A stretch of DNA of 64,000 bases from Clostridiaceae bacterium BL-3. Its GTDB lineage: Bacteria > Bacillota > Clostridia > Clostridiales > Clostridiaceae. The DNA is taken from positions 62,001-126,000 of the forward strand of contig CADDXC010000002.1 of the NCBI GenBank assembly GCA_902809985.1, given 5' to 3'. The notes under the pieces were generated by a model. That model searched no databases. It was not told where the DNA came from and worked only from the letters and a program-made list of their open reading frames with translations. Of this stretch, positions 8,528 through 54,290 are shown piece after piece. The translations under genes were made by a program, and so were the position numbers. How positions within the stretch are numbered: the stretch's first letter is position 1; every line of letters begins with the position of its first letter.

Positions 8528-9741
8528 TAAAAGTATGCTGTGTTATTGCTGCATTTATCTTATGGTTATATATATTTAATATAGAAAACCCTATGACAGA
8601 AAGAAAAATTGTAGTTCCTGTAACTATAGTAAATAAAAATGTACTTGCTCAATCAAAGCTTGTTCAGGTGGGTAATGAACAGCCTAATGTATCTCTCGTA
8701 ATAAAAGGAAATGCTTCTGATGTATATTCGGTAAGGCCCAGTGATTTTCAATTGAACTCGGATTTAAGTGCTTATGTTATGAAAAAGGGAGAAAATAATA
8801 TACCGGTAACTGTAAAAAAGAGCCCCAGTAATATAAGTATAATAAATAATCAAAATTTATGGATAAAAATACAGTTAGACGAATTAAAGGAAAAATTTGT
8901 ATCCATAAAAATAATACTAAGAGGAAAACCCAAAGAAGGATATTATGCTCTAGATCCTGTCTTGAAAACAGAAAAAGCAAAAATAAGCGGTGCTCAAGAT
9001 TCAATAAATGCGGTGAAATATGCTGCAGCTATATATGATTTAAAATATGCTCAAAATGACATAAGTACAACATTATCGCTTCAACCTCAAGATGTATCTG
9101 GAAATTTAATAAAAGATACCAGTATAAGTCCTTCTGCTGTTAAGGTTGTCATACCTATTGGAAAAATAAAAACCGTTCCAGTAAATATTAAAGTTCGTGG
9201 TAATTCTATAAATGGTTCGGAAACTAATTTGATGACTGCTGTGCCGGATAAGGTAGATATAGCTGGCAATGAAAGTGTGATAAAGAATATAAGTGGAATA
9301 GATACAGAGCCTGTTGATTTAAGCAAAATAGGAAGTGCAGAAAGTACACAGATCAAGTTAGTAGTTCCAGAAGGGGTAAAATTAGTAAATAGTGATGGAG
9401 TGATACAATTAAAATTGAATTCGAGTACATTTAAAGTTGATGGGGAATCGCAGAGGCAATTAAATTTGAATATACTTGTTAGGAATTTAAGTGACAATTA
9501 TACAGCCAAATTGAGCAGCGGGAGTGTATCGATAGTAGTTTCTGGATCTGATAGTATTCTAAATAATCTAAATGAAAATAGTATAGCTTGCTTTGTAGAT
9601 GCGGATTCGATGGATGAAGGGGTTCACTCCGCCAATGTAGTGATATCTCTACCTCAGGGATTGACATTAGTATCTCAAAATCCGCAGAGTGTGAATTTAG
9701 AAATAAGTAAAAAAACGTCGGAGGGACAAAATGGCCATTAG
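8494..9741 (+). CDS. cdaR: CdaR, YbbR-domain regulator of CdaA
   Basis: The protein has 415 residues from GTG 8494. One N-terminal membrane helix (about residues 9-26) is followed by a long extracellular region of repeated YbbR domains. Each carries the strand pattern seen in VPVTIVNKN, VSIKIILRG, VPVNIKVRG and LNLNILVRN. YbbR/CdaR binds CdaA and tunes c-di-AMP production. It is translationally coupled to cdaA and overlaps the next gene by 11 bases. Start codon choice is constrained by the overlap and by the basic residues before the membrane helix. Confidence 0.92.
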   Translation: MEEENKKNQILIKVCCVIAAFILWLYIFNIENPMTERKIVVPVTIVNKNVLAQSKLVQVGNEQPNVSLVIKGNASDVYSVRPSDFQLNSDLSAYVMKKGENNIPVTVKKSPSNISIINNQNLWIKIQLDELKEKFVSIKIILRGKPKEGYYALDPVLKTEKAKISGAQDSINAVKYAAAIYDLKYAQNDISTTLSLQPQDVSGNLIKDTSISPSAVKVVIPIGKIKTVPVNIKVRGNSINGSETNLMTAVPDKVDIAGNESVIKNISGIDTEPVDLSKIGSAESTQIKLVVPEGVKLVNSDGVIQLKLNSSTFKVDGESQRQLNLNILVRNLSDNYTAKLSSGSVSIVVSGSDSILNNLNENSIACFVDADSMDEGVHSANVVISLPQGLTLVSQNPQSVNLEISKKTSEGQNGH

Positions 9742-26873: not shown

Positions 26874-26905
26874 TTGCAGATATGGAACAAAATGCATTTT
26901 TGCAA
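26874..26905 (+). promoter_or_regulatory. paired enhancer sites upstream of the acyl carrier/LuxE-LuxC operon
   Basis: TTGCAGATATGGAA at 26874-26887 and ATGCATTTTTGCAA at 26892-26905 each match a TTGCA-N4-TGCAA palindrome with one mismatch in the arms. Their spacing is 18 bases. The same motif and spacing occur before the 4-hydroxybutyrate operon. They lie about 125 bases upstream of a -24/-12 promoter, a usual place for sigma-54 activator sites. The outer TTGTTGCA/TGCAACAA pairing could also form a weak terminator for cobO. Confidence 0.6.
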
Positions 26906-27029
26906 CAATATAAAATGTATATTATGATTACTAGGACTGAGGATAAGTTATATGTACTTTTGTTTTATTAATGCAACAAGCATATATAGGGGGTATCTGC
27001 AATTCTTTGATATAGAAATGTTTAGTTGG

Positions 27030-27045
27030 TGGTATGATAATTGCT
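27030..27045 (+). promoter_or_regulatory. sigma-54 (-24/-12) promoter of the acyl carrier/LuxE-LuxC operon
   Basis: TGGTATGATAATTGCT fits TGGYAY-N5-TTGCW exactly. It is 39 bases before the acyl carrier protein start. Confidence 0.75.
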
Positions 27046-27084
27046 ACTTAATAAAGATTGCATGGGGAAATGGAGGAGTATATT

Positions 27085-27327
27085 ATGAATAATTTAGATA
27101 AATTCAAAAATATAATTTGTGATACTTTAAATATAAAGGATGTAGAAAATATCAAAGATGAAATGGGACCGGATGAAATAAAGGATTGGGATTCATTGGC
27201 ACATGTGGAATTGGTTACAGCACTGGGAGATGAATTTGGAGTAAATTTTGATGTGGTTGATATATCCAGAATGTATACGATTGGAGACATTAAAAAGATA
27301 TTAAAAAAATACGGGGTGGAACTATGA
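27085..27327 (+). CDS. acyl carrier protein
   Basis: The protein has 80 residues from ATG 27085, with GGAGGAG at 27072-27078 deciding the start. Ser37 in DWDSLAHVELV is the expected phosphopantetheine site. The protein is acidic with the four-helix pattern of carrier proteins. It overlaps the ligase gene by 4 bases, so it is a dedicated carrier for this cluster rather than the fatty-acid synthesis ACP. Confidence 0.88.
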   Translation: MNNLDKFKNIICDTLNIKDVENIKDEMGPDEIKDWDSLAHVELVTALGDEFGVNFDVVDISRMYTIGDIKKILKKYGVEL

Positions 27328-28793
27328 CATTTACAGACTATATATTTGAAAAATCCAGACATTTAAAAAAAACAGCATTGATAGATGGCGGCAGTATAAG
27401 CTATGAGGAGATTTACCGTGGTGTAAATTATGTATCCAATCTACTGAATAAAAGTAAATGTTCAAAGAAAGACAGTGTACTTGTTATTTCAGATAATTCC
27501 AGATTTTTTATAGAAACCTATTTTGGTATAATTAAAAATGGAAATATCTGTGTTCCGATTAATCCAAATATGTCTGAAAACGATGTAAAATATATTGTGG
27601 ATATTTTAAAAATAAAAACAATTTTTTGTCAAAAAAAATATGAATCCAGGGTAAAAAAATTGATTTATGAGAGAGCAATATTATATACTGAAGAAGACAT
27701 GGGAACAAGTGAAAATGAACTTGTTCTGAATGATCCTGTAGATGTAGAAAGGGATACAGCACTTATTATGTTTACATCGGGGTCTACTTCAAAGCCGAAA
27801 GGTGTCATGCTCACGCATTACAATTTGATGTATAATACCGATTCTATTGTGGAATATTTGCGTTTGACTGAAAAGGACCGGGTGGAGGTTGTACTTCCTT
27901 TTTACTATTGTTATGGAACATCCCTTTTGAATACGCATTTTAGATGTGGTGGAAGCGTTGTAATAAATAGTAAGTTTATGTTTCCTCAAACTGTTATAGA
28001 GGACATAAAGAAATATAATTGTACTGGTTTTGCAGGGGTTCCAAGCACTTACCAGATATTGTTGAGAATGACTAATTTTAAGGATGCTGAGATGCCGTCA
28101 TTGAGATATGTAACACAGGCCGGAGGAAGGCTTCCAGAGGTATTTATATTGGAATTGTATGAGGCTCTTAAAGGAGTTGACATATACATTATGTATGGAC
28201 AGACTGAAGCTACAGCTAGGTTGTCATATCTTCCGCCCTCTCAGATTAAAAATAAATTGGGTTCTATAGGAAAGGGGATTCCAGGTACAAAATTAATGAT
28301 CCTAAATAAGAAGTGTCTTCCAGCTGAAATAGGAGAAGTAGGAGAAATAGTTGCTAAAGGTGGAAATGTGATGAAGGGATATTTTAATGACGAAGAGGAA
28401 ACAAAAAAGGTTCTTAGGAATGGTCTTTTGTATACAGGTGATTTAGCCTTTAAAGATGAGGATGGATATATATTTGTAGTTTCCAGAGAAAAGAATATAA
28501 TAAAATGTGCTGGAAATAGAATAAGCCCCAGAGAGATTGAAAATACAATCTGTGGTATAAAACAGGTTGTGGAGTGTGTTGTTATAGGGGTTGAGGACGA
28601 TATTTTAGGCGAGGCAATAAAGGCTTTTGTAGTTTTAAAAGATAGTAACAGCAGCATAGATTCAAAATATATAGTGGATTACTGTATGGAAAGGCTTCCA
28701 AGGTATAAGGTACCCAAATATGTACAGTTTTTACCGTCACTTCCCAAAAATTCATCAGGCAAAGTACTGCTTAAAAAGCTGAAGAATATGTAA
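27324..28793 (+). CDS. acyl-AMP ligase (AMP-binding enzyme)
   Basis: The protein has 489 residues. The ATP loop MFTSGSTSKPKGVMLTH, the YGQTEATARLSYLP motif, YTGDLAFKDEDGYIFV and the catalytic Lys in SSGKVLLKK are present. It activates a carboxylic acid as the adenylate. Next to a carrier protein it probably loads the acyl group onto phosphopantetheine rather than free CoA. The acid is unknown. It starts four bases inside the carrier gene and is 25 bases before the LuxE-like gene. Confidence 0.88.
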   Translation: MTFTDYIFEKSRHLKKTALIDGGSISYEEIYRGVNYVSNLLNKSKCSKKDSVLVISDNSRFFIETYFGIIKNGNICVPINPNMSENDVKYIVDILKIKTIFCQKKYESRVKKLIYERAILYTEEDMGTSENELVLNDPVDVERDTALIMFTSGSTSKPKGVMLTHYNLMYNTDSIVEYLRLTEKDRVEVVLPFYYCYGTSLLNTHFRCGGSVVINSKFMFPQTVIEDIKKYNCTGFAGVPSTYQILLRMTNFKDAEMPSLRYVTQAGGRLPEVFILELYEALKGVDIYIMYGQTEATARLSYLPPSQIKNKLGSIGKGIPGTKLMILNKKCLPAEIGEVGEIVAKGGNVMKGYFNDEEETKKVLRNGLLYTGDLAFKDEDGYIFVVSREKNIIKCAGNRISPREIENTICGIKQVVECVVIGVEDDILGEAIKAFVVLKDSNSSIDSKYIVDYCMERLPRYKVPKYVQFLPSLPKNSSGKVLLKKLKNM

Positions 28794-28818
28794 GGTAAAA
28801 CAAGGTAGGTGGATATAT

Positions 28819-29931
28819 GTGGAAATAGACCATTTAATAGAAAACATAGTATTAGGTAATCAATTTAAAATATCTCAAAAGAAAAAGGAAAGTATACTGC
28901 TCGATATAATCAAGAAGCAGCTTGAATTGAATAAAGTCAGCCCCAATATAAGCAGTATGTATAAAAAATTTTCTATAAATATTCCCAAGATTTCGAAACT
29001 TTCAGAAGTCCCATTTATCCCAGTAAACATGTTCAAAAAATTTGCTCTTTTAACCTGCAGCAGTGAAGATGTAATAAGAATTTTAAATTCCAGTTCCACT
29101 ACTTCTGGAATTCCCAGCAAGATATATCTGGATAAAACTACGTCTATAAGGCAGATTCAGGGTCTTATAAATACTTTAAAGGATTTTCTTGGAGGGAATA
29201 GGAGACCTCTTCTTATCCTGGATACGGAAGACGTGAACAAAAAAAATGCTGTATTGAATGCGAGGGGAGCAGCTATTAGGGGAATCAGTAATTTTGCCAG
29301 CAGTATAACTTATGTTATGGATAAAAAGGATGGGCATTTGGAAGTAAATTTGTCCAGATTGAGAAAATTTGAAGATGAAAATAGAGATAGGGAAGTATTG
29401 GTATATGGTTTTACCTATATAATATGGAGCAGATTTGTAAGAGAATTGGAAAAGAGGAATATTAGGCTATTGCTTCCTAAGATGAAACTTCTCCACAGCG
29501 GCGGGTGGAAGAAACTTGTTTCTGAAAGTGTTGAAAAAAAGGAGTTTAACAGGAGGACAGCAGAGGTCTTTGGGACTGAAGAAAAAAATATATTGGATTT
29601 TTATGGTATGGTGGAACAACTGGGAGTGGTATTTGTGGATTGTGAATGTGGATATAAGCATGTACCGGATTTTGCAGATGTTATAATAAGAGATTTTAAC
29701 ACTTTGAAAGAAGTTGAGATCGGTCAGTGTGGAATTATAGAAGTTATGAGTATTTTAGGTTCCAGCTATCCTTCGCAGGGCATTTTGACGGAAGATGTTG
29801 GAGAGCTTGTGGGGGTTGATGATTGCAGATGTGGAAGGCGGGGTAAATATTTTAAATTCAAGTCCAGGATGGAGAAAGCTGAAATCAGGGGCTGTGGAGA
29901 TACATTTGCAGAAAAGGAGGCCATTAAATGA
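28819..29931 (+). CDS. LuxE-like acyl-protein synthetase
   Basis: The protein has 370 residues from GTG 28819, the length of bacterial LuxE. Family segments include SSTTSGIPSKIYLD near residues 93-106, HSGGWKKL and a C-terminal RGCGDTF with Cys359, close to the LuxE acyl-acceptor Cys364. A zinc-like CECGYKH/CRCGRRGKY pair is also visible. LuxE activates fatty acid as acyl-AMP and holds it as a thioester for LuxC. Its overlap with the next gene (ATGA) supports a complex with the LuxC-like reductase. Confidence 0.85.
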   Translation: MEIDHLIENIVLGNQFKISQKKKESILLDIIKKQLELNKVSPNISSMYKKFSINIPKISKLSEVPFIPVNMFKKFALLTCSSEDVIRILNSSSTTSGIPSKIYLDKTTSIRQIQGLINTLKDFLGGNRRPLLILDTEDVNKKNAVLNARGAAIRGISNFASSITYVMDKKDGHLEVNLSRLRKFEDENRDREVLVYGFTYIIWSRFVRELEKRNIRLLLPKMKLLHSGGWKKLVSESVEKKEFNRRTAEVFGTEEKNILDFYGMVEQLGVVFVDCECGYKHVPDFADVIIRDFNTLKEVEIGQCGIIEVMSILGSSYPSQGILTEDVGELVGVDDCRCGRRGKYFKFKSRMEKAEIRGCGDTFAEKEAIK

Positions 29932-31217
29932 TAGATTGTTACCTGTTGGATGGATCCTTTTATAGAGAGAAAAAAATTTTTGATAAATTTGATGAAATAA
30001 GTAATACTTTAAGAGAAAATGTAGAATTGTTAAATTCAATACCAGTGGAGGCTGTTATTCTCATATTGGAAGAATACAGTAAAAAATTGTCTAGAGATAA
30101 ACAACTTCTTAAAATCACAGGAACAGCGTATCTTTCCTTCTATTTTAGAAAATCAAATATAGAAAGGCTGATAGAAATCAATTTGAAAGATAAAAAATAT
30201 TTAAATAAATTTGTTCCTATAGGTAGCGGCAGATTCATAAAAGCACAGGGGAGGGGAATCAGCTGTCACTGGATAGCAGGAAATGTACCTACTCTTGCTA
30301 TTTATTCAATTTTTCAGTCACTCATAGCTAAAAATTCAAATCTTGTGAGACTACCTGAAAAAAACATCCCTATAGTTTTAAAATTATTAAAACCTCTGGA
30401 TAATATACGGGTAATCTACAATGATCAGGTATATTCTTCTAAAAATATATTGAAAAATATATCCCTGATATATTTTCCTAGAGAAGATGAATTTTTAAAT
30501 AAATCCATGTCTGGTATTGCGGATTCAAGGATTATATGGGGAGGAGAAAACGCAGTAAATCATATTGCCTCACTTCCTAAAAAAACTACCTGTAAGGATA
30601 TAGTTTTTGGGCCAAAATATTCTTTTGCCGTGTTTGACAGATATGCTGTTGAAAGTAATAGCTGCAGTGAATATATAAACAAGTTTGTAACGGACGTAGT
30701 TTTGTTCGGACAGAAAGCCTGTTCTTCACCTCATGTGCTTTTTGTAGAAAAAAGTGATATTCCTTTGAAATATATCGTTGAAATGCTTGAAAGATCTTTT
30801 CAAAGAATAGGTAAAAGGTATAAAAATATTCCAGATCAGAATACCTGTGCAGAAATTATAAACAAGAGGGGAATGTACAGCCTTGATTTGACCAAGGATA
30901 TTTGCTGCAGTGACGGATTGGAATATACTATTTTGATTGATGATGAAATAAAATTAGAAGAACCTGTAGGGGGAAGTTGTATTTTTGTAAAGCAGATAAA
31001 TAGTATATTTGATATAAAGGATTTGATTACCCGCAGGATACAGACAATAGGTTATGCTATTGATGATAAAGACAAGCTTTTTAAATTTGCAGGTATGGTT
31101 ACATCAGCGGGTGTAAACAGAGTGGTGGGTTTTGGAACCATGAATAATTATGATTCCCCCTGGGATGGATATTTTATGATAAATGAACTTGTAATGTGGT
31201 GTAATCTGAATATTTAG
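29928..31217 (+). CDS. LuxC-like acyl reductase
   Basis: The protein has 429 residues. An aldehyde-dehydrogenase-type fold carries CHWIAGNVPTLAIYSIFQSL as nucleotide-binding region and Cys265 in GQKACSSPHVLFVEK as the expected acyl-accepting residue. LuxC reduces acyl-thioesters with NADPH to aldehyde. No luciferase or LuxD gene is present, so light production is not the purpose. The aldehyde could feed an alcohol, amine or a carrier-bound product. Start ATG 29928 overlaps the luxE-like stop. Confidence 0.85.
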   Translation: MIDCYLLDGSFYREKKIFDKFDEISNTLRENVELLNSIPVEAVILILEEYSKKLSRDKQLLKITGTAYLSFYFRKSNIERLIEINLKDKKYLNKFVPIGSGRFIKAQGRGISCHWIAGNVPTLAIYSIFQSLIAKNSNLVRLPEKNIPIVLKLLKPLDNIRVIYNDQVYSSKNILKNISLIYFPREDEFLNKSMSGIADSRIIWGGENAVNHIASLPKKTTCKDIVFGPKYSFAVFDRYAVESNSCSEYINKFVTDVVLFGQKACSSPHVLFVEKSDIPLKYIVEMLERSFQRIGKRYKNIPDQNTCAEIINKRGMYSLDLTKDICCSDGLEYTILIDDEIKLEEPVGGSCIFVKQINSIFDIKDLITRRIQTIGYAIDDKDKLFKFAGMVTSAGVNRVVGFGTMNNYDSPWDGYFMINELVMWCNLNI

Positions 31218-31237
31218 ATTATCTTTAAGATTGCTGG

Positions 31238-31263
31238 CAGGAGACCTTTAAGTAAGGCTCCTG
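31238..31263 (+). terminator. hairpin between the LuxC-like gene and the MaoC gene
   Basis: CAGGAG pairs with CTCCTG and CCTT with AAGG around a short loop. The following tract ACTTTCTTA is only partly T-rich, so this may be a leaky terminator or an RNA-processing hairpin. Confidence 0.5.
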
Positions 31264-31292
31264 ACTTTCTTATATAAGGGAGGTTATATTAT

Positions 31293-31709
31293 ATGAGAGG
31301 CTTAACCATTGATGAATTGAAAATTGGAGATAGAGCTTATTTTGAAAAGATTGTATCTGAAGATGATGTATATTCATTTGCTGAAATAACTGGGGATTTC
31401 AATCCACTTCATGTAGATGAAAAAAAATACAAAGATGTATTTAAGAAAAGAATAGCACATGGGGCGTTGATAGCAGGATATTTATCTGCCTGTATAGGGA
31501 TGTACCTTCCAGGTCCAGGTACTATTTATTTAAGTCAAAACTCAAAATTCAATTTGCCTGTATATTTTGGAGATACTATAAAAGTGGAAATAGAGGTTTT
31601 AGAAATATATAAAAATGAGAATATAGCAAAGCTTAAAACTACCTGTACCAATTCAACAGGTCATAAGGTTTTGACAGGTGAAGCTTTTGTTATGCCGCCG
31701 TCAAAATAG
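31293..31709 (+). CDS. MaoC-family (R)-enoyl hydratase/dehydratase
   Basis: The protein has 138 residues, a single hot-dog domain. The catalytic motif is FAEITGDFNPLHVDEKK (Asp and His) and AHGALIAGYLSACIGMYLPGPGT follows. Such enzymes hydrate enoyl-CoA or enoyl-ACP to the R-3-hydroxy form, or the reverse. It follows the LuxC-like gene after a hairpin and is probably part of the same pathway. Crotonyl-type substrates would link it to the neighbouring 4-hydroxybutyrate operon, but this is inference. Confidence 0.88.
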   Translation: MRGLTIDELKIGDRAYFEKIVSEDDVYSFAEITGDFNPLHVDEKKYKDVFKKRIAHGALIAGYLSACIGMYLPGPGTIYLSQNSKFNLPVYFGDTIKVEIEVLEIYKNENIAKLKTTCTNSTGHKVLTGEAFVMPPSK

Positions 31710-31867
31710 CATAAATTATTAAAATACGTGATTGGTGCTTTGAAAGCTAGGGTTTATAGGCATATTTTATCATGAAAACGGTTAAATATATGATATGATT
31801 TTTTATGTAGAGTACTGCACATTTAGTTATATTTTATGTTATATGATTTTAGAAGGGGGTTTAATTC

Positions 31868-33322
31868 ATGAAAGACAGGGAATTGGTAAGCTTTGATAAT
31901 TTGCTGGAAGGAGATGCAAAATTTTTGAAATCCAGAATAAAACAACTGTATCAGGTTATTGAAAGTTCCTATGATGGGATATATATAACAGATGGAAATG
32001 CAAATACCATATTTCTAAATAAGTCCTATGAGAGAATCACCGGAATGAGGAAAAGTGAAATGCTTGGCAAAAATATGAGATACCTGGAGAAAAACAATTA
32101 TATTTCCAAATCCGGGACACTTATAGTATTGAACAGCAGAAGAAATGTTACAATCGAACAGAAGTTTAAAACGGGCAAGACAGCATTGGTTTCCAGCAGC
32201 CCTATTTTCGATGAAAATGGCGAAATAACCATGGTGGTCACAAATGTGAGAAATGTTACGGAACTCTATGAATTGAAGGAACAACTGGAGAAAAATAGGG
32301 AGATCATGGGAAAATATCATTTACAGCTGGAGGCAATGAGAAAGCAGATTCTTGAATGCTCAGATATTATAGTGAAAGATGAAAAGATGATCAATACACT
32401 TAATATGGCAAAAAAAGTGGCAAAAGTGGATACAACTGTGCTTTTGCTGGGGGAAACTGGTGTAGGCAAGGAAAAAGTAGCTAAATATATACATAAAAAC
32501 AGCAGGAGAAGCAATAAGAATTTTATAAAAATAGACTGTAGTTCTATACCTCATAACCTCATAGAATCAGAATTTTTTGGCTATGAAAAAGGGTCGTTTA
32601 CAGGTGCAAGCAAGGAGGGGAAGATGGGTCTTTTCGAGTTAGCAGATGAGGGTACGGTTTTTTTGGATGAAATTGGGGAACTCGACATGGATATGCAGGC
32701 TAAACTTTTGAGGGTGATTCAAGAGAGAGAAATCAGGAGAGTAGGCGGTACAAGTACTATAAAAATTAATATAAGGGTGATTGCCGCAACTAATAGAAAT
32801 TTGGAAAAAATGGTTGATGAAAAGATATTTAGAGAAGATCTATACTATAGATTGAATGTAGTGCCCATTACGATTTTGCCTCTTAGAGAGAGAAAGGGTG
32901 ACATTGAGCCACTTATAAATTATTTTATGGGTGTATTTAATAAGAAATATGATTTTAATAAAGTGATTACCGGTGCAGCAGTGGATTCTTTAAAAGAATA
33001 TAGATGGCCGGGAAATGTAAGGGAATTAAAAAATATAATAGAAAGAGTTATAATTATGACTACACGGGACAAGATACTGAGAAGCGATCTGCCCATAAGG
33101 GAAGTTTGGGACAGCAGCAAATTTGAGAGCGAGGAAAGTGGCATGATAAAGAATCATTTAACTCTAAAGGATGCGGTTGAAAATCTGGAAGAGTCTATGA
33201 TAGAAAGTGCTTTTAGAAAATGTGGAAATGTGAGGGATGCAGCGAGGGAACTTGGAATAAATGCCTCCACTTTAGTTAGAAAGAGGAAGAGGTACAGGAA
33301 TAAATGTATGTTGCAAAAATGA
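31868..33322 (+). CDS. PAS-domain sigma-54-dependent transcriptional activator
   Basis: The protein has 484 residues. A PAS sensor spans about 22-140 (SYDGIYITDGNANTIFLNKS). A coiled-coil linker leads to an AAA+ domain with Walker A GETGVGKE near residue 195 and the sigma-54 contact loop GSFTGA at 242-247. A Fis-type helix-turn-helix closes the protein (RDAARELGINASTLVRKRKR). It opens promoters held by sigma-54 RNA polymerase. Palindromes begin inside its last codons, and both flanking operons have -24/-12 promoters. It is therefore their likely activator, with an unknown small ligand at the PAS domain. Confidence 0.93.
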   Translation: MKDRELVSFDNLLEGDAKFLKSRIKQLYQVIESSYDGIYITDGNANTIFLNKSYERITGMRKSEMLGKNMRYLEKNNYISKSGTLIVLNSRRNVTIEQKFKTGKTALVSSSPIFDENGEITMVVTNVRNVTELYELKEQLEKNREIMGKYHLQLEAMRKQILECSDIIVKDEKMINTLNMAKKVAKVDTTVLLLGETGVGKEKVAKYIHKNSRRSNKNFIKIDCSSIPHNLIESEFFGYEKGSFTGASKEGKMGLFELADEGTVFLDEIGELDMDMQAKLLRVIQEREIRRVGGTSTIKINIRVIAATNRNLEKMVDEKIFREDLYYRLNVVPITILPLRERKGDIEPLINYFMGVFNKKYDFNKVITGAAVDSLKEYRWPGNVRELKNIIERVIIMTTRDKILRSDLPIREVWDSSKFESEESGMIKNHLTLKDAVENLEESMIESAFRKCGNVRDAARELGINASTLVRKRKRYRNKCMLQK

Positions 33323-33342
33323 AATCAGTTGCAATTATGCAA
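33311..33342 (+). promoter_or_regulatory. paired enhancer sites of the 4-hydroxybutyrate operon
   Basis: TTGCAAAAATGAAA (33311-33324) and TTGCAATTATGCAA (33329-33342) are 18 bases apart. The second is a perfect TTGCA-N4-TGCAA palindrome; the first has one arm mismatch and overlaps the activator's stop codon. Confidence 0.65.
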
Positions 33343-33386
33343 ATAAGAGATATATTTGATAAATTGAATAAGCAAAAGATATTATG

Positions 33387-33400
33387 TTGCGATTATGCAA
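33387..33400 (+). promoter_or_regulatory. third enhancer site of the 4-hydroxybutyrate operon
   Basis: TTGCGATTATGCAA matches the palindrome with one mismatch. It lies 58 bases from the previous site and about 110 bases before the -24 element. Confidence 0.6.
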
Positions 33401-33439
33401 TAAATCTATGAATCCGACTGTAGTATTTTTATAGTACAG

Positions 33440-33495
33440 AAATTCGTATAGTTCTGCAATTGCCTGCTAAATTGAGGACTGTGCGAATTTTTTGT
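33440..33495 (+). terminator. rho-independent terminator after the sigma-54 activator gene
   Basis: AAATTCGTATAGTTC pairs with GGACTGTGCGAATTT using G-U pairs, with inner CAATT/AATTG, then six T. It separates activator transcription from the operon promoter just downstream. Confidence 0.82.
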
Positions 33496-33511
33496 ATTTT
33501 GTATAAAAAAC

Positions 33512-33527
33512 TGGTACTAAAATTGCT
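33512..33527 (+). promoter_or_regulatory. sigma-54 (-24/-12) promoter of the 4-hydroxybutyrate operon
   Basis: TGGTACTAAAATTGCT fits TGGYAY-N5-TTGCW exactly and lies 58 bases before the dehydratase start. Confidence 0.78.
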
Positions 33528-33585
33528 TTAATAAGGTTGTGTAAGTAAAAAATTATATCTATATGAGATGAAAGGAATGATTGCG

Positions 33586-35040
33586 ATGTCTTTAATGACA
33601 GGAGAAGAATATGTGGAGAGTTTGCGCAAACTAAAGTTAAACGTTTATTATCTGGGGAAAAAAGTAGAAAGCCCTGTAGATAATCCCGTACTTCGTCCAT
33701 CTCTTAATTCTGTGAAGATGACTTATGATCTGGCTCAGCAGCCGGAATACGAGGATCTTATGACGGTAAAATCAAATATAACAGGCGAGAAGGTAAATAG
33801 ATTTACTCATTTGCATCAAAGTACCGAAGATCTGGTAAAGAAAGTTAAAATGCAGAGATTATGTGGACAAAAAACTGCCGCTTGTTTCCAAAGATGTGTT
33901 GGAATGGATGCATTTAATGCAGTATACAGCACTACTTTTGAGATAGACAAACAGTACGATACTAATTATTTTGAAAACTTTAAAAAATATTTGGCATATG
34001 TTCAAGACAAGGATCTCACAGTTGATGGAGCAATGACAGACCCTAAGGGAGATAGAGGATTATCCCCAAGTAAACAAGTTGATCCGGATTTGTACTTGAG
34101 AGTTGTAGAAAGAAGGCCGGACGGAGTAGTAGTTAGAGGTGCAAAGGCTCACCAGACAGGAATTTGTAATTCTCATGAAGTTCTGGTAATGCCTACACAG
34201 GCTATGAAACCTGAGGATAAGGATTATGCAATATCTTTTGCAGTTCCTACTGATACAAAGGGAATAACCATGATAATTGGGAGACAGTCCTGTGACACAA
34301 GAAAACTGGAAAAAGATGCTGACATTGATGTAGGTAATAAGAATTTTGGCGGTGTAGAAGCACTGACGGTATTTGACGATGTATTTGTTCCAAATGACAG
34401 AATATTTTTAAATGGTGAAACTGAATATGCAGGTATGCTGGTGGAAAGGTTTGCAGGATATCACAGACAGAGCTATGGTGGTTGCAAAGTTGGAGTGGGA
34501 GATGTACTTATAGGAGCTGCCGCACTGGCTGCCGATTATAATGGAGTGCCAAGGGCATCTCATATAAAGGACAAGTTGATAGAAATGATGCATTTGAATG
34601 AAACACTGTATGCCTGTGGAATTGCCTGCTCTTCTGAGGGATATCCAACAAAAGCGGGCAACTATCAGATAGATTTATTGCTTGCAAATGTATGTAAGCA
34701 GAATGTAACGAGATTTCCATATGAAATTGTAAGGCTGGCGGAAGATATAGCAGGAGGTCTTATGGTTACAATGCCTTCAGAAAAGGATTATAAGAGCCCT
34801 GAAGTAGGCAAATATGTAGAAAAATATCTAGTAGGGACTGCATCTGTTCCCGTAGAGAACAGAATGAAAGTACTCAGGCTTATAGAAAACTTGAGCCTAG
34901 GCACTGCAGCAGTGGGCTATAGAACTGAGTCCATGCACGGTGCAGGTTCACCACAGGCACAGAGAATAATGATATCAAGACAGGGAAATCTGGGCCAGAA
35001 GAAATTGTTGGCAAAAGCTATAGCCAGAATAGAAGAATAG
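33586..35040 (+). CDS. abfD: 4-hydroxybutyryl-CoA dehydratase / vinylacetyl-CoA isomerase (copy 1)
   Basis: It removes water from 4-hydroxybutyryl-CoA by a ketyl-radical route, giving crotonyl-CoA, with FAD and a [4Fe-4S] cluster. The protein has 484 residues. The cluster ligands are all present: Cys100 and Cys104 in CFQRC, His293 and Cys300 in GYHRQSYGGC, which correspond to C99, C103, H292 and C299 of the characterised enzyme. ATG 33586 is chosen because AAAGGA is nine bases upstream and the start then matches copy 2; ATG 33568 is an alternative. It leads a sigma-54-controlled operon with CoA-transferase and permease. Confidence 0.94.
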   Translation: MSLMTGEEYVESLRKLKLNVYYLGKKVESPVDNPVLRPSLNSVKMTYDLAQQPEYEDLMTVKSNITGEKVNRFTHLHQSTEDLVKKVKMQRLCGQKTAACFQRCVGMDAFNAVYSTTFEIDKQYDTNYFENFKKYLAYVQDKDLTVDGAMTDPKGDRGLSPSKQVDPDLYLRVVERRPDGVVVRGAKAHQTGICNSHEVLVMPTQAMKPEDKDYAISFAVPTDTKGITMIIGRQSCDTRKLEKDADIDVGNKNFGGVEALTVFDDVFVPNDRIFLNGETEYAGMLVERFAGYHRQSYGGCKVGVGDVLIGAAALAADYNGVPRASHIKDKLIEMMHLNETLYACGIACSSEGYPTKAGNYQIDLLLANVCKQNVTRFPYEIVRLAEDIAGGLMVTMPSEKDYKSPEVGKYVEKYLVGTASVPVENRMKVLRLIENLSLGTAAVGYRTESMHGAGSPQAQRIMISRQGNLGQKKLLAKAIARIEE

Positions 35041-35051
35041 TGAATATAAAG

Positions 35052-35072
35052 ATGGGGTGATTTTCACCCCAT
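35052..35072 (+). other. perfect hairpin between the dehydratase and NifU-like genes
   Basis: ATGGGGTGA and TCACCCCAT form a 9-base stem with a three-base loop 11 bases after the abfD stop. No T run follows, so it looks like an RNA processing or stabilising element rather than a full terminator. Confidence 0.5.
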
Positions 35073-35094
35073 GAGTAAAATGAGGTGCTGCATT

Positions 35095-35379
35095 ATGGAA
35101 GAAAAAATATTGGAAGTAATTGATAAAAACATAAGACCTTATTTAAATAGTCATAATGGGGATATCCAATTTATTGGAGTGAAAGATGGAGTAGTTAAAA
35201 TTAGGCTTTTGGGCCAGTGCAGCAATTGTGCTTTATCCAAGGACACTGTAAAAAACGTAATTGAAACTTCTTTGAAATTAAAAATCGAACAGGTAAAAAA
35301 AGTAGAAGTTGTAGATTATATAAGTCAGGACACTTTAGATCTAGCAAAAAAAATATTAAATAAGGATTTGGATGACTGA
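35095..35379 (+). CDS. NifU C-terminal-domain-like iron-sulfur protein
   Basis: The protein has 94 residues. ATG 35095 has GAGGTG upstream; two earlier in-frame ATG codons sit in the hairpin or lack a site. The NifU C-terminal fold is seen in VIDKNIRPYLNSHNGDIQFI and the CxxC motif is Cys42/Cys45 (GQCSNCALS). Such proteins hold and hand over [4Fe-4S] clusters. Placed between a [4Fe-4S] dehydratase and its CoA-transferase, it is probably a dedicated cluster donor. It ends one base before the next gene. Confidence 0.82.
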   Translation: MEEKILEVIDKNIRPYLNSHNGDIQFIGVKDGVVKIRLLGQCSNCALSKDTVKNVIETSLKLKIEQVKKVEVVDYISQDTLDLAKKILNKDLDD

Positions 35380-35652
35380 GTGCTGAACGTGGGGATTAAA
35401 TATTGCGGAGGGTGTAATTCCAGATATGATAGAAAGAAATTTTTATATAATTTGAAAAAAAGTTTTAGGTACAATTTTGAAGTAGCTCAATTGGATAAAG
35501 TGTATGATATATTGATAATTTTGTGTGGATGTAGTAGCTGCTGTGTTAACTACAGCGAACTTAAATTTAAGTTTAAAAAAATATTGGTGAGATCTGAAGA
35601 AGATTTTAATGAAGTTAAAAATCTGTTAGATCAATATTCCGATGAAATATAG
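35380..35652 (+). CDS. Cys-rich small protein of unknown function
   Basis: The protein has 90 residues from GTG 35380, immediately after the NifU-like stop. It has two Cys groups: Cys9/Cys12 in KYCGGCNSRYDR and Cys49, 51, 54 and 55 in LCGCSSCC. The remainder looks alpha/beta. I do not recognise a named family. The tight packing inside this operon and the metal-binding look suggest help with iron-sulfur or redox maturation of the dehydratase. Confidence 0.75.
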   Translation: MLNVGIKYCGGCNSRYDRKKFLYNLKKSFRYNFEVAQLDKVYDILIILCGCSSCCVNYSELKFKFKKILVRSEEDFNEVKNLLDQYSDEI

Positions 35653-35666
35653 GGGGAATTATCTTT

Positions 35667-36968
35667 ATGAATTGGAAGGATATATATAAGAAAAAATTGG
35701 TGAATGCAGAAGAAGCTGTTTCTAAAATAAAATCTAATGACAGGGTAGTTATTGCACATGCTACTGGGGAACCCCTGGATATAGTAGATGCGATGGTTAA
35801 AAATAAAGAAAATTATGAAAACGTAGAGATAGTTCATATGGTAGCCATGGGCAAAGGTGAATATGCTAAACCCGGAATGGAAAAATATTTTCACCACAAT
35901 TCACTGTTTGCAGGAGCTACCACCAGGGATGCTGTAAATTCAGGCAGAGGTGATTATACACCTTGCTATTTCTATGAGGTACCGGATTTATTTAGGAATG
36001 GCTATTTGCCGGTGGATGTGGCAATCATACAGGTAAGCAGGCCGGATAAATATGGCTATTGTAGTTTTGGAGTTTCCAATGATTATACCAAACCGGCAGC
36101 GGAAAATGCCAAACTTGTAATTGCGGAAGTAAATGAAAATATGCCAAGGACTTTGGGAGATTCATTTATACATGTATCGGACATTGACTATATAGTGGAA
36201 GTTTCGCATCCGCTTATAGAACTGAAGCCGGCTAAATTGGGAGAAGTGGAGAAGTCCATAGGGAGATACTGTGCATCTTTAATTGAAGATGGTTCAACTC
36301 TTCAGCTTGGTATAGGTGCCATTCCAGATGCTGTACTTATGTTTTTGAAAGATAAAAAGGACTTGGGGATACATTCTGAAATGATATCAGATGGTGTGGT
36401 AGATTTAGTAAATGCAGGGGTTATTAATAATAGCAAAAAAACTCTTCATCCTGGGAAAATAGTTGTGACATTTTTAATGGGTACGAAAAAATTATATAAT
36501 TTTGTAGACGATAACCCTATTATAGCCTCTTATCCTGTAGATTATGTAAATGATCCTAGAATTATTATGCAAAACTATAAGATGGTGTCAATAAATTCCT
36601 GCGTTCAAGTAGATTTAATGGGACAGATATGTTCTGAAAGTATAGGATTAAAACAGATAAGCGGAGTTGGAGGACAAGTGGATTTTATAAGGGGAGCCAA
36701 TATGGCCAGGGATGGTAAGGCAATTATAGCCATACCTTCTACTGCGGCAAGGGGAAAAGTTTCAAGAATAGTTTCACTGCTGGATACTGGTGCTACGGTT
36801 ACTACTAATAGATGTGATGCAGATTATGTGGTTACAGAATATGGTATTGCTCATCTTAAGGGAAAGACTCTGAGAGATAGGGCTAGAGCTTTGATAAATG
36901 TCACTCACCCGGATTTTAGAGAACCGTTGATTAGAGAATTTGAGAAGAGATTTAATGATAAATTTTAG
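35667..36968 (+). CDS. 4-hydroxybutyrate CoA-transferase (acetyl-CoA hydrolase/transferase family)
   Basis: The protein has 433 residues. The N-terminal domain has DRVVIAHATGEPLDIVDAM. The C-terminal domain has LQLGIGAIPDAVL and the expected catalytic Glu in GIHSEMISDGVVDL. Family members move CoA between acetyl-CoA and 4-hydroxybutyrate or butyrate. Its operon with abfD makes 4-hydroxybutyrate the best substrate guess, so the pair would convert it to crotonyl-CoA. Confidence 0.88.
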   Translation: MNWKDIYKKKLVNAEEAVSKIKSNDRVVIAHATGEPLDIVDAMVKNKENYENVEIVHMVAMGKGEYAKPGMEKYFHHNSLFAGATTRDAVNSGRGDYTPCYFYEVPDLFRNGYLPVDVAIIQVSRPDKYGYCSFGVSNDYTKPAAENAKLVIAEVNENMPRTLGDSFIHVSDIDYIVEVSHPLIELKPAKLGEVEKSIGRYCASLIEDGSTLQLGIGAIPDAVLMFLKDKKDLGIHSEMISDGVVDLVNAGVINNSKKTLHPGKIVVTFLMGTKKLYNFVDDNPIIASYPVDYVNDPRIIMQNYKMVSINSCVQVDLMGQICSESIGLKQISGVGGQVDFIRGANMARDGKAIIAIPSTAARGKVSRIVSLLDTGATVTTNRCDADYVVTEYGIAHLKGKTLRDRARALINVTHPDFREPLIREFEKRFNDKF

Positions 36969-37038: not shown

Positions 37039-38424
37039 ATGGCACATAAAAGAGAATATGGAAAAGAGTGCCCTTATATACCAGCAGGTCCGTTCAAAAT
37101 ACGTATTCCAGGAGTGCACTATAGGTTTGAAATTGCAGATTATGTTCAGGGACTTTTGATGTGTGCTGTTTGTCTTGGTGCTATCCCCATGCTTCAGCAG
37201 TATTTGGGAATGCCATTTGAAGTTGCATTGGCCATTGTCGTTCTTAATGGAATTCTTTACTGCACTCATGTCTTGCTGGGTGATCCGGTTGTACCGGGAT
37301 GGGTTACACCTGCCATACCACTTTTAATGTTGTATGTCAGTGAATTCCCTATGGGTCCTGAAAGAGTACAAGCACTTATTGCATTTGAATTGAGTTTAGG
37401 TGTTTTTGCTGCTTTCCTTGGTATTACAGGGTTGGGCAAGAAAATAATTACACTGATACCAAACTGTATGCAGGCTGGTATCATAATGGGAGCTGGAATT
37501 GCAGCCGTAAATACTGTATTTGGAAAAACTGGATATTTCCAAAAATATCCCTGGTCAATTGCAATATGTATAGGTTTGGCATTTTGGCTGTTATTTTCAA
37601 ATTATTTTAAGAGCTTGAGAAATAAAAACAAAGTTCTTCAGGTAATTTCAAATCTGGGGATTTTGCCCTGTATATTGCTGGCAGTAGTAGTAGCTCCGCT
37701 CGTAGGAGAAACTATGTGGCCAAGTATTAAATGGGGATTTTCGAACCCTTCCTTTGGAGAACTGTGGAGTCATTGGACATTCTGGTCCATAGGCTTTCCA
37801 TCGGCGAAAATGTTTATACAGGCCATACCAATGGTATTTTCAGCTTATGTAATATTATTTGGTGAAATGATTCAGGCACAGGCATTATTGGAAGATGCAG
37901 GAAAAGTTCGCCCGGATGAGTTTATAGACTATAATCCTAACAGATCGCATTTAATATTTGGACTGCGTAATTGTTTAATGTCAATTATAGGCCCTGATAT
38001 AACTATGTGCGGCCCTCTATGGGCAGCTATGCAGGTTGTGGTATGTGACAGATATAAACATGGTAGAAAAGCCATGGATTCTATAAACGGAGGTGCAGGT
38101 TCATTCAGGTTTGGTACTTTAACAGGTTATTTCTTAATGCCTATAGTTACTCTTGTCACTCCAATTTTAAATATAGCACTGGCTTTGACCATGATGGTTC
38201 AAGGGTATGTTTCTGTGAGAATAGGAATACTGAAAGCACGTACTATAAATGATTTGGGAATTGCAGGTGTAATGGCTGCTGTAATAGTTGCAAGAGGTGC
38301 TGCCTGGGGTCTTGCCGTAGGCATAGTGTTGAGTTTATTGGTGTTGCTTGGCAATAAAAAGAATCTGGATGTAAATATTTTTGTTAGAGAAGATAAAAAA
38401 ACGGAAATTAAAGAAGAAGCTTAG
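37039..38424 (+). CDS. multi-spanning permease, nucleobase/anion-permease-like
   Basis: The protein has 461 residues with about 12 hydrophobic helices and a short basic C-terminus. The motif GDPVVPGWVTPAIPL in helix 3 and the helix layout resemble the SLC23/SLC26-type permease fold, but the family fit is loose. It closes the 4-hydroxybutyrate operon, so uptake of 4-hydroxybutyrate or a related carboxylate is inferred from position. Confidence 0.65.
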   Translation: MAHKREYGKECPYIPAGPFKIRIPGVHYRFEIADYVQGLLMCAVCLGAIPMLQQYLGMPFEVALAIVVLNGILYCTHVLLGDPVVPGWVTPAIPLLMLYVSEFPMGPERVQALIAFELSLGVFAAFLGITGLGKKIITLIPNCMQAGIIMGAGIAAVNTVFGKTGYFQKYPWSIAICIGLAFWLLFSNYFKSLRNKNKVLQVISNLGILPCILLAVVVAPLVGETMWPSIKWGFSNPSFGELWSHWTFWSIGFPSAKMFIQAIPMVFSAYVILFGEMIQAQALLEDAGKVRPDEFIDYNPNRSHLIFGLRNCLMSIIGPDITMCGPLWAAMQVVVCDRYKHGRKAMDSINGGAGSFRFGTLTGYFLMPIVTLVTPILNIALALTMMVQGYVSVRIGILKARTINDLGIAGVMAAVIVARGAAWGLAVGIVLSLLVLLGNKKNLDVNIFVREDKKTEIKEEA

Positions 38425-52838: not shown

Positions 52839-54290
52839 ATGTCTTTAATGACAGGAGAGGAATACGTAGAAAGTTTGCGTAAATTAAAATTAAATATATA
52901 TTTGTTTGGAGAAAAATTGAGCAACCCAGTAGATAACCCAATGCTTGTACCATCACGTAACTCTGTAAAAATGACATATGATCTAGCGCAGATACCGGAA
53001 TATCAAAATCTGATGACAGCGACTTCAAACTTAACGGGGGAAAAGATCAATAGATTTACCCACTTGCACCAGAGCACGGAGGATTTAGTTAAAAAAGTAA
53101 AAATGCAGAGATTATTAGGACAAAAAACAGCTTCGTGTTTTCAGAGATGTGTGGGAATGGATGCCATAAATGCCGTTTACAGTACAGCTTATGAAGTAGA
53201 TAAGGAATATAATACTAATTATCTTGACAATATTACTGGCTTTATAAAATATGTGCAGAAAAACGATCTGACTGTTGACGGAGCCATGACAGATCCAAAA
53301 GGTGATAGAGGCTTGTCGCCGAGTAAACAGGCAGATCCGGATTTGTTTCTAAGGGTAGTTGAAAGAAGACCTGATGGAATTGTAGTGAGGGGGGCGAAAG
53401 CTCACCAGACTGGAATCTGTAATTCGCATGAAGTCCTGGTAATGCCGACAGTTTCAATGAGACCGGAGGATAAGGATTATGCAGTTGCATTTTCTGTACC
53501 TGTGGATACTGAGGGCATAATGATTGTAGTCGGCAGACAGTCCTGTGATACGAGAAAACTTGAAGAACTTTCTGACATTGATGTTGGCAATAAGAATTTT
53601 GGAGGAATGGAAGGCCTGGTAATATTTGACGATGTGTTTGTACCGAATGACAGAATATTTTTAAATGGAGAAACTGAATTTGCAGGAGTACTTGTTGAAA
53701 GGTTTGCAGGCTATCACAGGCAGAGCTACGGTGGATGTAAATCTGGGATGGGGGATGTGCTCATAGGAGCAGCAGCTTTAGCTGCTGAATACAATGGAGT
53801 ACCCAGGAAGTCCCATATAAAAGATAAATTAATAGAGATGATGCATTTAAATGAGACTTTATATTCCTGCGGTGTTGCATGTTCCTGTGAAGGTTGTAAA
53901 CTCGCAGCAGGAAATTACCTGGTTAATTTGCTGTTAGCCAATGTATGCAAGCAGAACGTGACTAGATTCCCCTATGAGATTTCAAGGTTAGCTGAGGATA
54001 TTGCAGGTGGTTTGATGGTTACTATGCCTTCCGAAAAAGATTTTAAAAATCCTGTTACCGGCAAGTATTTGGAAAAATACTTTAAGGGAACTTCTAGTAT
54101 ACCTACGGAAGACAGAATGAAAGTGCTGAGACTTATAGAGAATTTATGTCTTGGTACAGCTGCAGTAAGCTATAGGACTGAATCCATGCACGGGGCAGGT
54201 TCACCTCAGGCACAGAGAATAATGATAGCTAGACAGGAGAATTTGGGAGATAAAAAGAAATTAGCGAAATCAATTGCTAGAATAGAATAA
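52839..54290 (+). CDS. abfD: 4-hydroxybutyryl-CoA dehydratase-like protein (copy 2)
   Basis: The protein has 483 residues. Most residues match copy 1 along the whole length, and the cluster ligands are kept: Cys100/Cys104 in CFQRC and the His and Cys of GYHRQSYGGC. GGGGG precedes the start. Unlike copy 1 it has no CoA-transferase or NifU-like gene beside it. It sits between IclR and PFOR genes. It may act on 4-hydroxybutyryl-CoA under other conditions or on a related acyl-CoA. Confidence 0.9.
   Translation: MSLMTGEEYVESLRKLKLNIYLFGEKLSNPVDNPMLVPSRNSVKMTYDLAQIPEYQNLMTATSNLTGEKINRFTHLHQSTEDLVKKVKMQRLLGQKTASCFQRCVGMDAINAVYSTAYEVDKEYNTNYLDNITGFIKYVQKNDLTVDGAMTDPKGDRGLSPSKQADPDLFLRVVERRPDGIVVRGAKAHQTGICNSHEVLVMPTVSMRPEDKDYAVAFSVPVDTEGIMIVVGRQSCDTRKLEELSDIDVGNKNFGGMEGLVIFDDVFVPNDRIFLNGETEFAGVLVERFAGYHRQSYGGCKSGMGDVLIGAAALAAEYNGVPRKSHIKDKLIEMMHLNETLYSCGVACSCEGCKLAAGNYLVNLLLANVCKQNVTRFPYEISRLAEDIAGGLMVTMPSEKDFKNPVTGKYLEKYFKGTSSIPTEDRMKVLRLIENLCLGTAAVSYRTESMHGAGSPQAQRIMIARQENLGDKKKLAKSIARIE

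Follow-up and report, generated by a model that had tools for sequence, protein, structure and literature searches.

Among sigma-54 dependent activators, a Clostridium XanR group has been described by Nie, Dong and Yang (2019; PMC6615313, Table 1), with abfD-nifU-hyp-ach-golB and acp-caiC-luxEC as targets, and sigma-54 promoters and a conserved upstream activating sequence motif were reported for it. In the passages available from that work, the gel shifts were made with SigL and six other promoters and did not include XanR. Here, a XanR-like locus is analysed in a stretch of 64,000 nucleotides (the window) from Clostridiaceae bacterium BL-3 (GCA_902809985.1, contig CADDXC010000002.1, positions 62,001 to 126,000 of the forward strand), in which an activator gene lies between an operon headed by an acyl carrier protein gene (acp operon) and another headed by the gene for 4-hydroxybutyryl-coenzyme A (CoA) dehydratase (abfD operon). 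The comparisons below suggest that a XanR-like one-component activator very probably switches on both operons through paired sites and a third site.

The window contains an acp-caiC-luxEC-type operon, its abfD-nifU-hyp-CoA transferase-transporter order fits Table 1 of PMC6615313, and a sigma-54 promoter, identified by sequence match, precedes each target. The XanR assignment rests on these target operons, gene order and promoters, and our guess is that 'golB' corresponds to the window's transporter. Because PMC6615313 lists XanR with the same two targets, the regulon is a rediscovery of a published prediction, and it is already known in that form. In the published passages we met none of the additions made here, namely the rule of paired sites, a third site, an enhancer in the ends of three kinds of genes, the butyrate-operon paralog and clades in which acp lacks the sites; those of PMC6615313 make no mention of 18-bp (base pair) pairing, codon overlap or clades without acp sites. 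Among the literature matches listed, the XanR name appears only in PMC6615313, and no further relevant paper was found for LuxE/LuxC with 4-hydroxybutyrate, AbfD with acyl-protein synthetase, or an activator site over a stop codon.

A model for a layout of three sites is provided by AdhR of C. beijerinckii (PMC7017808), a sigma-54 activator with three upstream sites which, according to the mutations described there, all contribute to promoter activity, and for which looping was proposed. AdhR differs in its targets (adhA1 and adhA2), in its GAF plus PAS domains and in its motif, placed by PMC6615313 in a TGT-N10-12-ACA group. PrdR and other sigma-54 enhancer-binding proteins have the AAA+ and Fis-type helix-turn-helix (HTH) domains in common with the window's activator, but their targets differ. 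In the part available of PMC12316311, COG2368, which includes 4-hydroxybutyryl-CoA dehydratase, is given as sigma-54 regulated mainly in Clostridia; in that of PMC6510779, nothing on the acp or abfD operons was found with the terms used.

In the original prediction, TTGCA-N4-TGCAA palindromes were placed at five positions and a perfect TGGYAY-N5-TTGCW promoter before each operon. The coordinates of all five sites and both promoters are correct, although the motif is exact only at 33329 (TTGCAATTATGCAA), with one mismatch in each of the sites at 26874 (TTGCAGATATGGAA), 26892 (ATGCATTTTTGCAA), 33311 (TTGCAAAAATGAAA) and 33387 (TTGCGATTATGCAA). As claimed, two sites are exactly 18 bp apart in both the acp and the abfD sets, and both promoters are perfect, being the sole two of that pattern in the window (0.26 expected). 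The distance from the last named site to the promoter, put at about 110-125 bases, is 124 bp for acp and 111 bp for abfD, and the overlap of the activator's last codons with one site holds as well, with the 33311 site spanning the final three codons and the stop. An additional acp-side site, absent from the earlier description, was detected at 26963, half preserved (8/10 motif bases). Searches for terminator-like and sigma-70-like sites gave chance level only.

To ask how specific these sites are, a pair pattern was built from the two window arrays and searched in the organism's own genome (3,855,091 bases). With at most two mismatches, only the acp and abfD arrays matched genome-wide, a third place appeared at three mismatches, and the same pattern read backwards gave no match. 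In contrast to the pair, which is unique to these two places, the single motif with at most one mismatch was found at 149 places; in the window, at up to two mismatches, it was observed 54 times against 48.2 expected, which is chance level. As the single motif is unenriched in the window and frequent in the genome, the evidence lies in the pairing, the promoters and the conservation, the single motif being uninformative. Across the genome, there are 52 perfect -24/-12 matches on the two strands together, vs three for the backwards pattern.

Conservation was followed in a family survey of 206 genomes, with cut-offs on the expectation value (E) of E<=1e-150 for AbfD and E<=1e-130 for the activator. 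AbfD was found in 48 genomes and the activator in 45, with both in 43, the activator alone in two and AbfD alone in five (Fisher p 3e-36, kinship ignored), and the gene cluster is kept across relatives with local changes. Upstream regions were then compared for 38 acp and 48 abfD genes, a pair being scored when at least 16 of the 20 motif bases were present at exactly 18 bp. Before counting, acp matches below 45% identity, AbfD matches below 70%, matches starting past residue 12, places with less than 250 upstream bases and regions identical over the last 230 bases were dropped. The 18-bp pair was present in 18/38 acp and 32/48 abfD regions, against a mean of 0.03 and a maximum of 1 in shuffled regions, and a -24/-12 promoter (at most one mismatch) lies downstream of 49 of these 50 pairs. 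The commonest other spacings between 10 and 60 bp were 26 bp (8 acp, 11 abfD), 29 bp (5 acp) and 58 bp (8 abfD); we read the 26-bp spacing as coming largely from a half-site overlapping the array and the 58-bp one largely from a third site. Chance, in the form of an A+T-rich genome with many near-palindromes picked by eye, could account for the unenriched single motif, but it is refuted by the exact 18-bp spacing, by conservation in many genomes and by the near-zero shuffle controls, so that we give it a negligible probability.

Several observations weigh against a single activator acting on both operons through these pairs. The related genomes retained in the counts are not independent samples. 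At the threshold used, 20/38 acp regions lack a pair, 18 of these 20 keeping a -24/-12 promoter (at most one mismatch); the acp regions with this promoter and no pair include the locus L134 and the clades around L047, L133, L140 and L144. A pair is likewise missing from 16/48 abfD regions, three of which (L130, L144 and L145) carry it farther upstream, and L043 has the activator and both operons and no good pair. The link from activator to site is one of association. The two-operon rule is not universal across clades, and the acp regions could be taken to indicate that there is no general single regulon, with the pair acting on abfD, acp commonly controlled by a different activator, and sites common to both operons only in some species. 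However, for the acp regions in loci whose activator belongs to the window's subclade and is not a paralog, the pair is present in 11/12 cases, L043 being the exception, and both window promoters have it; a split of this kind is therefore considered unlikely.

A further alternative is that one or more other regulators bind the palindromes and the neighbouring activator acts elsewhere. The associative nature of the link, the 20 genome matches to the activator at E<=1e-60, which imply that other activators exist, and the frequency of single motif matches all leave room for it. In a tree of 64 rows, the activators examined form one 47-row clade with support 100/100. When the pair pattern was run against 20 genomes, one mismatch or fewer gave hits in 10/15 genomes with an activator match (E<=1e-130) and in 0/5 without; allowing two raised this to 13/15 and 2/5, respectively. 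By position, the matches with at most one mismatch sit at acp or abfD promoters, while the few other two-mismatch places, each found in one genome or identical in two, look like chance. The AbfD-bearing genomes without an activator match at that cut-off (L097-L101) are only partly usable as negative controls. In G198 and G199, a diverged activator (53-54% identity) lies directly upstream, and the good sites there are spaced by 17 and 16 bp; neither -24/-12 promoter nor pair is present in G228, and in G143 and G183 the -24/-12 promoter is present and the pair absent.

Also bearing on this alternative is a paralog of the activator (63-64% identity) found in L125 and L046, inside the activator clade. 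Its gene comes immediately after crt, hbd, thl, bcd and two etf genes (the family searches covered L125), and the end of its HTH reads STLVRKRKKY in L046 vs STLVRKRKRY in the window. Before crt, sites 18 bp apart (2461/2479 in L125, 2490/2508 in L046) are followed by a perfect -24/-12 promoter (2640 and 2669, respectively); the sites are imperfect, with one and two mismatches in L125 and two each in L046. A similar pair next to a paralog with a nearly identical HTH end, before an unrelated operon, suggests that sites of this kind follow the DNA-binding domain and not abfD. Together with the distribution of the pair between activator-bearing and activator-lacking genomes, this makes binding by another regulator distinctly improbable.

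As the 33311 site lies in codons, its conservation could reflect the protein, that is, the C-terminal LQK of the activator, instead of a binding site. Among the abfD pairs, 21/35 cross the stop of an upstream frame of at least 50 codons, which is the activator in 19 cases and an unrelated gene in two; all 18 acp pairs are clear of stop codons. In L044, the activator ends in VKKY without a pair, and the gene for u90, a cysteine-rich protein (8700-8975, minus strand), lies between the activator and abfD and ends in MLQK, codons formed by the pair. In L052 (genome G008), some 25 kb separate abfD and the activator, and in this genome the pair forms the last codons, again MLQK, of a GFO/IDH/MocA-type oxidoreductase (L138, 4718-5749, minus strand). 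In L060 (G012), with abfD about 18 kb from the activator, the pair is kept and crosses the stop of no frame of at least 50 codons, and the G012 activator (L040) ends in MMKK with no pair.

In L131, L132 and L154 a different gene with its own perfect -24/-12 promoter follows the pair at the activator's end, and pair and promoter alike lie apart from that end in L140 and L155. A pair at the activator's end was found in 19/27 cases with abfD within 520 bp downstream vs 5/18 without (Fisher p 0.007; L146 and L150 were left out as edges), and the five activators with an end pair and no near abfD each have a perfect -24/-12 promoter at 182-391 bp. Therefore, in the rearranged loci the pair stays with a sigma-54 promoter and not with the protein. 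One case speaks for the coding explanation and against this: in L036, with no abfD adjacent, LQK and part of the site persist. On the other side, the same DNA before abfD forms the MLQK of two unrelated genes, the activator stop falls inside a persisting site in L132, L135 and L152, LQK and the pair are both missing from the activator's end in L040, L044, L130 and L136, and the pair's second half lies outside coding sequence. Conservation as coding sequence was rejected on the strength of the rearranged loci, and what probability remains for it is very small. The true operator is probably a tandem 32-bp element of two GTTGCA-N4-TGCAAC palindromes 18 bp apart, a mobile enhancer tied to the promoter and overprinting the ends of upstream genes (activator, cysteine-rich protein and oxidoreductase, all MLQK), of which the duplicated activator kept a similar version at crt-hbd-thl-bcd-etf.

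The extended palindrome derives from 44 non-redundant arrays, obtained by collapsing those within three differences (acp from 18 to 16, abfD from 35 to 28). As worked out from base frequencies, a G precedes the first site in 39/44 arrays (89%); C or T follows it in 43/44 (98%), a G precedes the second site in 36/44 (82%) and a C follows it in 57%. These flanking columns played no part in the selection of the arrays, and at abfD the first G is often within a codon. The refined unit is about GTTGCA-N4-TGCAAC, often with an extra T before and A after, and could be read as TGT-N12-ACA, a type given for other activators in PMC6615313, which puts XanR among distinct motifs. A third site (at least 9/10 bases) between pair and promoter was found in 13/18 acp and 22/31 abfD arrays, where shuffles gave 0.2 and 0.44. 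For the 32-bp array as a whole, mirror symmetry was weak and is not claimed, the linker being below expectation: the spacers scored 93/176 vs 81.3 after shuffling (a value reached in 48 of 5000 shuffles), the outer halves 195/220 vs 191.3 and the inner halves 148 vs 144.7.

The proposal that one activator may serve the two flanking operons is supported by the co-occurrence of the activator clade, the pairs and the sigma-54 promoters across genomes, by the movement of the pair with the abfD promoter and by the similar pair of the paralog. From this we infer a mechanism comprising binding, looping, a given oligomer state, a PAS-sensed metabolite as inducer and possible self-activation by read-through. 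The product of 31868-33322 would be a XanR-type sigma-54 activator working as a one-component regulator, and its Fis-type HTH would recognise palindromes close to GTTGCA-N4-TGCAAC. Upstream of each operon, the 18-bp pair would hold two adjacent dimers and the promoter-near site a third; the bound dimers would build an active AAA+ oligomer, which would reach the -24/-12 promoter by looping and let the sigma-54 polymerase open. On sensing of the metabolite by the PAS domain, acp-ligase-luxE-luxC-(maoC) and abfD-nifU-u90-CoA transferase-(transporter) would be switched on together, and read-through from the acp operon may allow the activator to activate itself.

Table 1. Positions of predicted regulatory elements and genes in the window and, in the last two rows, of the paralog loci in their own numbering.
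Feature	Position	Strand	Remarks
Distal operator pair (predicted), acp operon	26874..26905 (26874-26887, 26892-26905)	+	two palindrome-like sites 18 bp apart; kept in relatives
Third, promoter-near acp site	26963..26976	+	left half decayed, right half preserved; palindrome complete in L037-L039 (TTGCATTAATGCAA)
Sigma-54 type -24/-12 promoter, acp operon	27030..27045	+	TGGTATGATAATTGCT; sequence match, conserved
Acyl carrier protein gene (acp)	27085..27327	+	DSL serine motif
AMP-forming acyl ligase gene	27324..28793	+	family matches
LuxE-like acyl-protein synthetase gene	28819..29931	+	family match
LuxC-like acyl reductase gene	29928..31217	+	family match
MaoC-like hydratase gene	31293..31709	+	MaoC-like gene here in only some relatives
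Activator gene, XanR-like	31868..33322	+	PAS, sigma-54 AAA+, Fis-type HTH; GSFTGA loop
Distal operator pair (predicted), abfD operon	33311..33342 (33311-33324, 33329-33342)	+	overlaps activator's last three codons and stop; conserved
Third, promoter-near abfD-operon site	33387..33400	+	motif match
Sigma-54 type -24/-12 promoter, abfD operon	33512..33527	+	TGGTACTAAAATTGCT; sequence match, conserved
4-hydroxybutyryl-CoA dehydratase (AbfD) gene	33568..35040	+	family match, PDB 1u8v match
NifU-like domain protein gene	35071..35379	+	family match
u90, cysteine-rich 90-aa protein gene	35380..35652	+	conserved in cluster
CoA-transferase gene, 4-hydroxybutyrate/butyryl-CoA:acetate type	35667..36968	+	family matches
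Membrane transporter gene, PurT-like	37039..38424	+	PDB 7tak match
Paralog locus, L125	2461-8754		18-bp-spaced sites and perfect -24/-12, operon, paralog
Paralog locus, L046	2490-8755		18-bp-spaced sites and perfect -24/-12, operon, paralog

In the activator, the AAA+ sigma-54 interaction domain (PF00158, 237.6 bits) has GSFTGA at residue 242 as its GAFTGA-type loop, a variant that still allows activation according to the passages available of PMC6615313, and the C-terminal HTH matches PF02954 (37.1 bits). Its best NCBIfam match is PrdR (NF041552), whose 429.7 bits fall short of the 795-bit cut-off, and the best 25 of 38 NCBIfam matches all lie below the cut-offs of their families. The genome has one match to rpoN.

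The AbfD protein has C106, C110, H299 and C306, at +7 from C99, C103, H292 and C299, which we take to be the iron-sulphur (Fe-S) ligands of the enzyme, and it matches the solved enzyme 1u8v with E 7.6e-241. Because AAAGGA precedes the ATG at 33586, the true start of abfD is perhaps there instead of at 33568. For u90, no Pfam or NCBIfam family was found at E<=0.001; the protein carries CGGC and CGCSSCC, its gene adjoins the NifU-like gene, and it perhaps serves Fe-S supply for AbfD. The acp-ligase-LuxE-LuxC set (27085-31217), with its dedicated acyl carrier protein, lies beside the 4-hydroxybutyrate genes and is kept in many relatives.

Further abfD genes were also located. A second one in the window (52839-54290) adjoins an IclR-type regulator (52054) and is without a -24/-12 promoter and an operator pair; EtfBA (48585, 49462), an FAD-linked oxidase (50466) and a pyruvate:ferredoxin oxidoreductase (54344) are encoded near it. 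The third abfD of the genome (C1:3088217; L156/L103) has a perfect -24/-12 promoter and another sigma-54 activator (45% identity) nearby, without the pair.

These results provide a sharp candidate operator for an activator coupling 4-hydroxybutyrate fermentation to the conserved acp-ligase-LuxE-LuxC operon, and the XanR prediction of 2019 is backed by independent comparisons. A shared switch would speak for both operons serving one pathway. With its fixed 18-bp pair, its movement onto unrelated gene ends and a paralog that reuses it before a butyrate operon, the element offers a clean system for the co-evolution of activators and enhancers.

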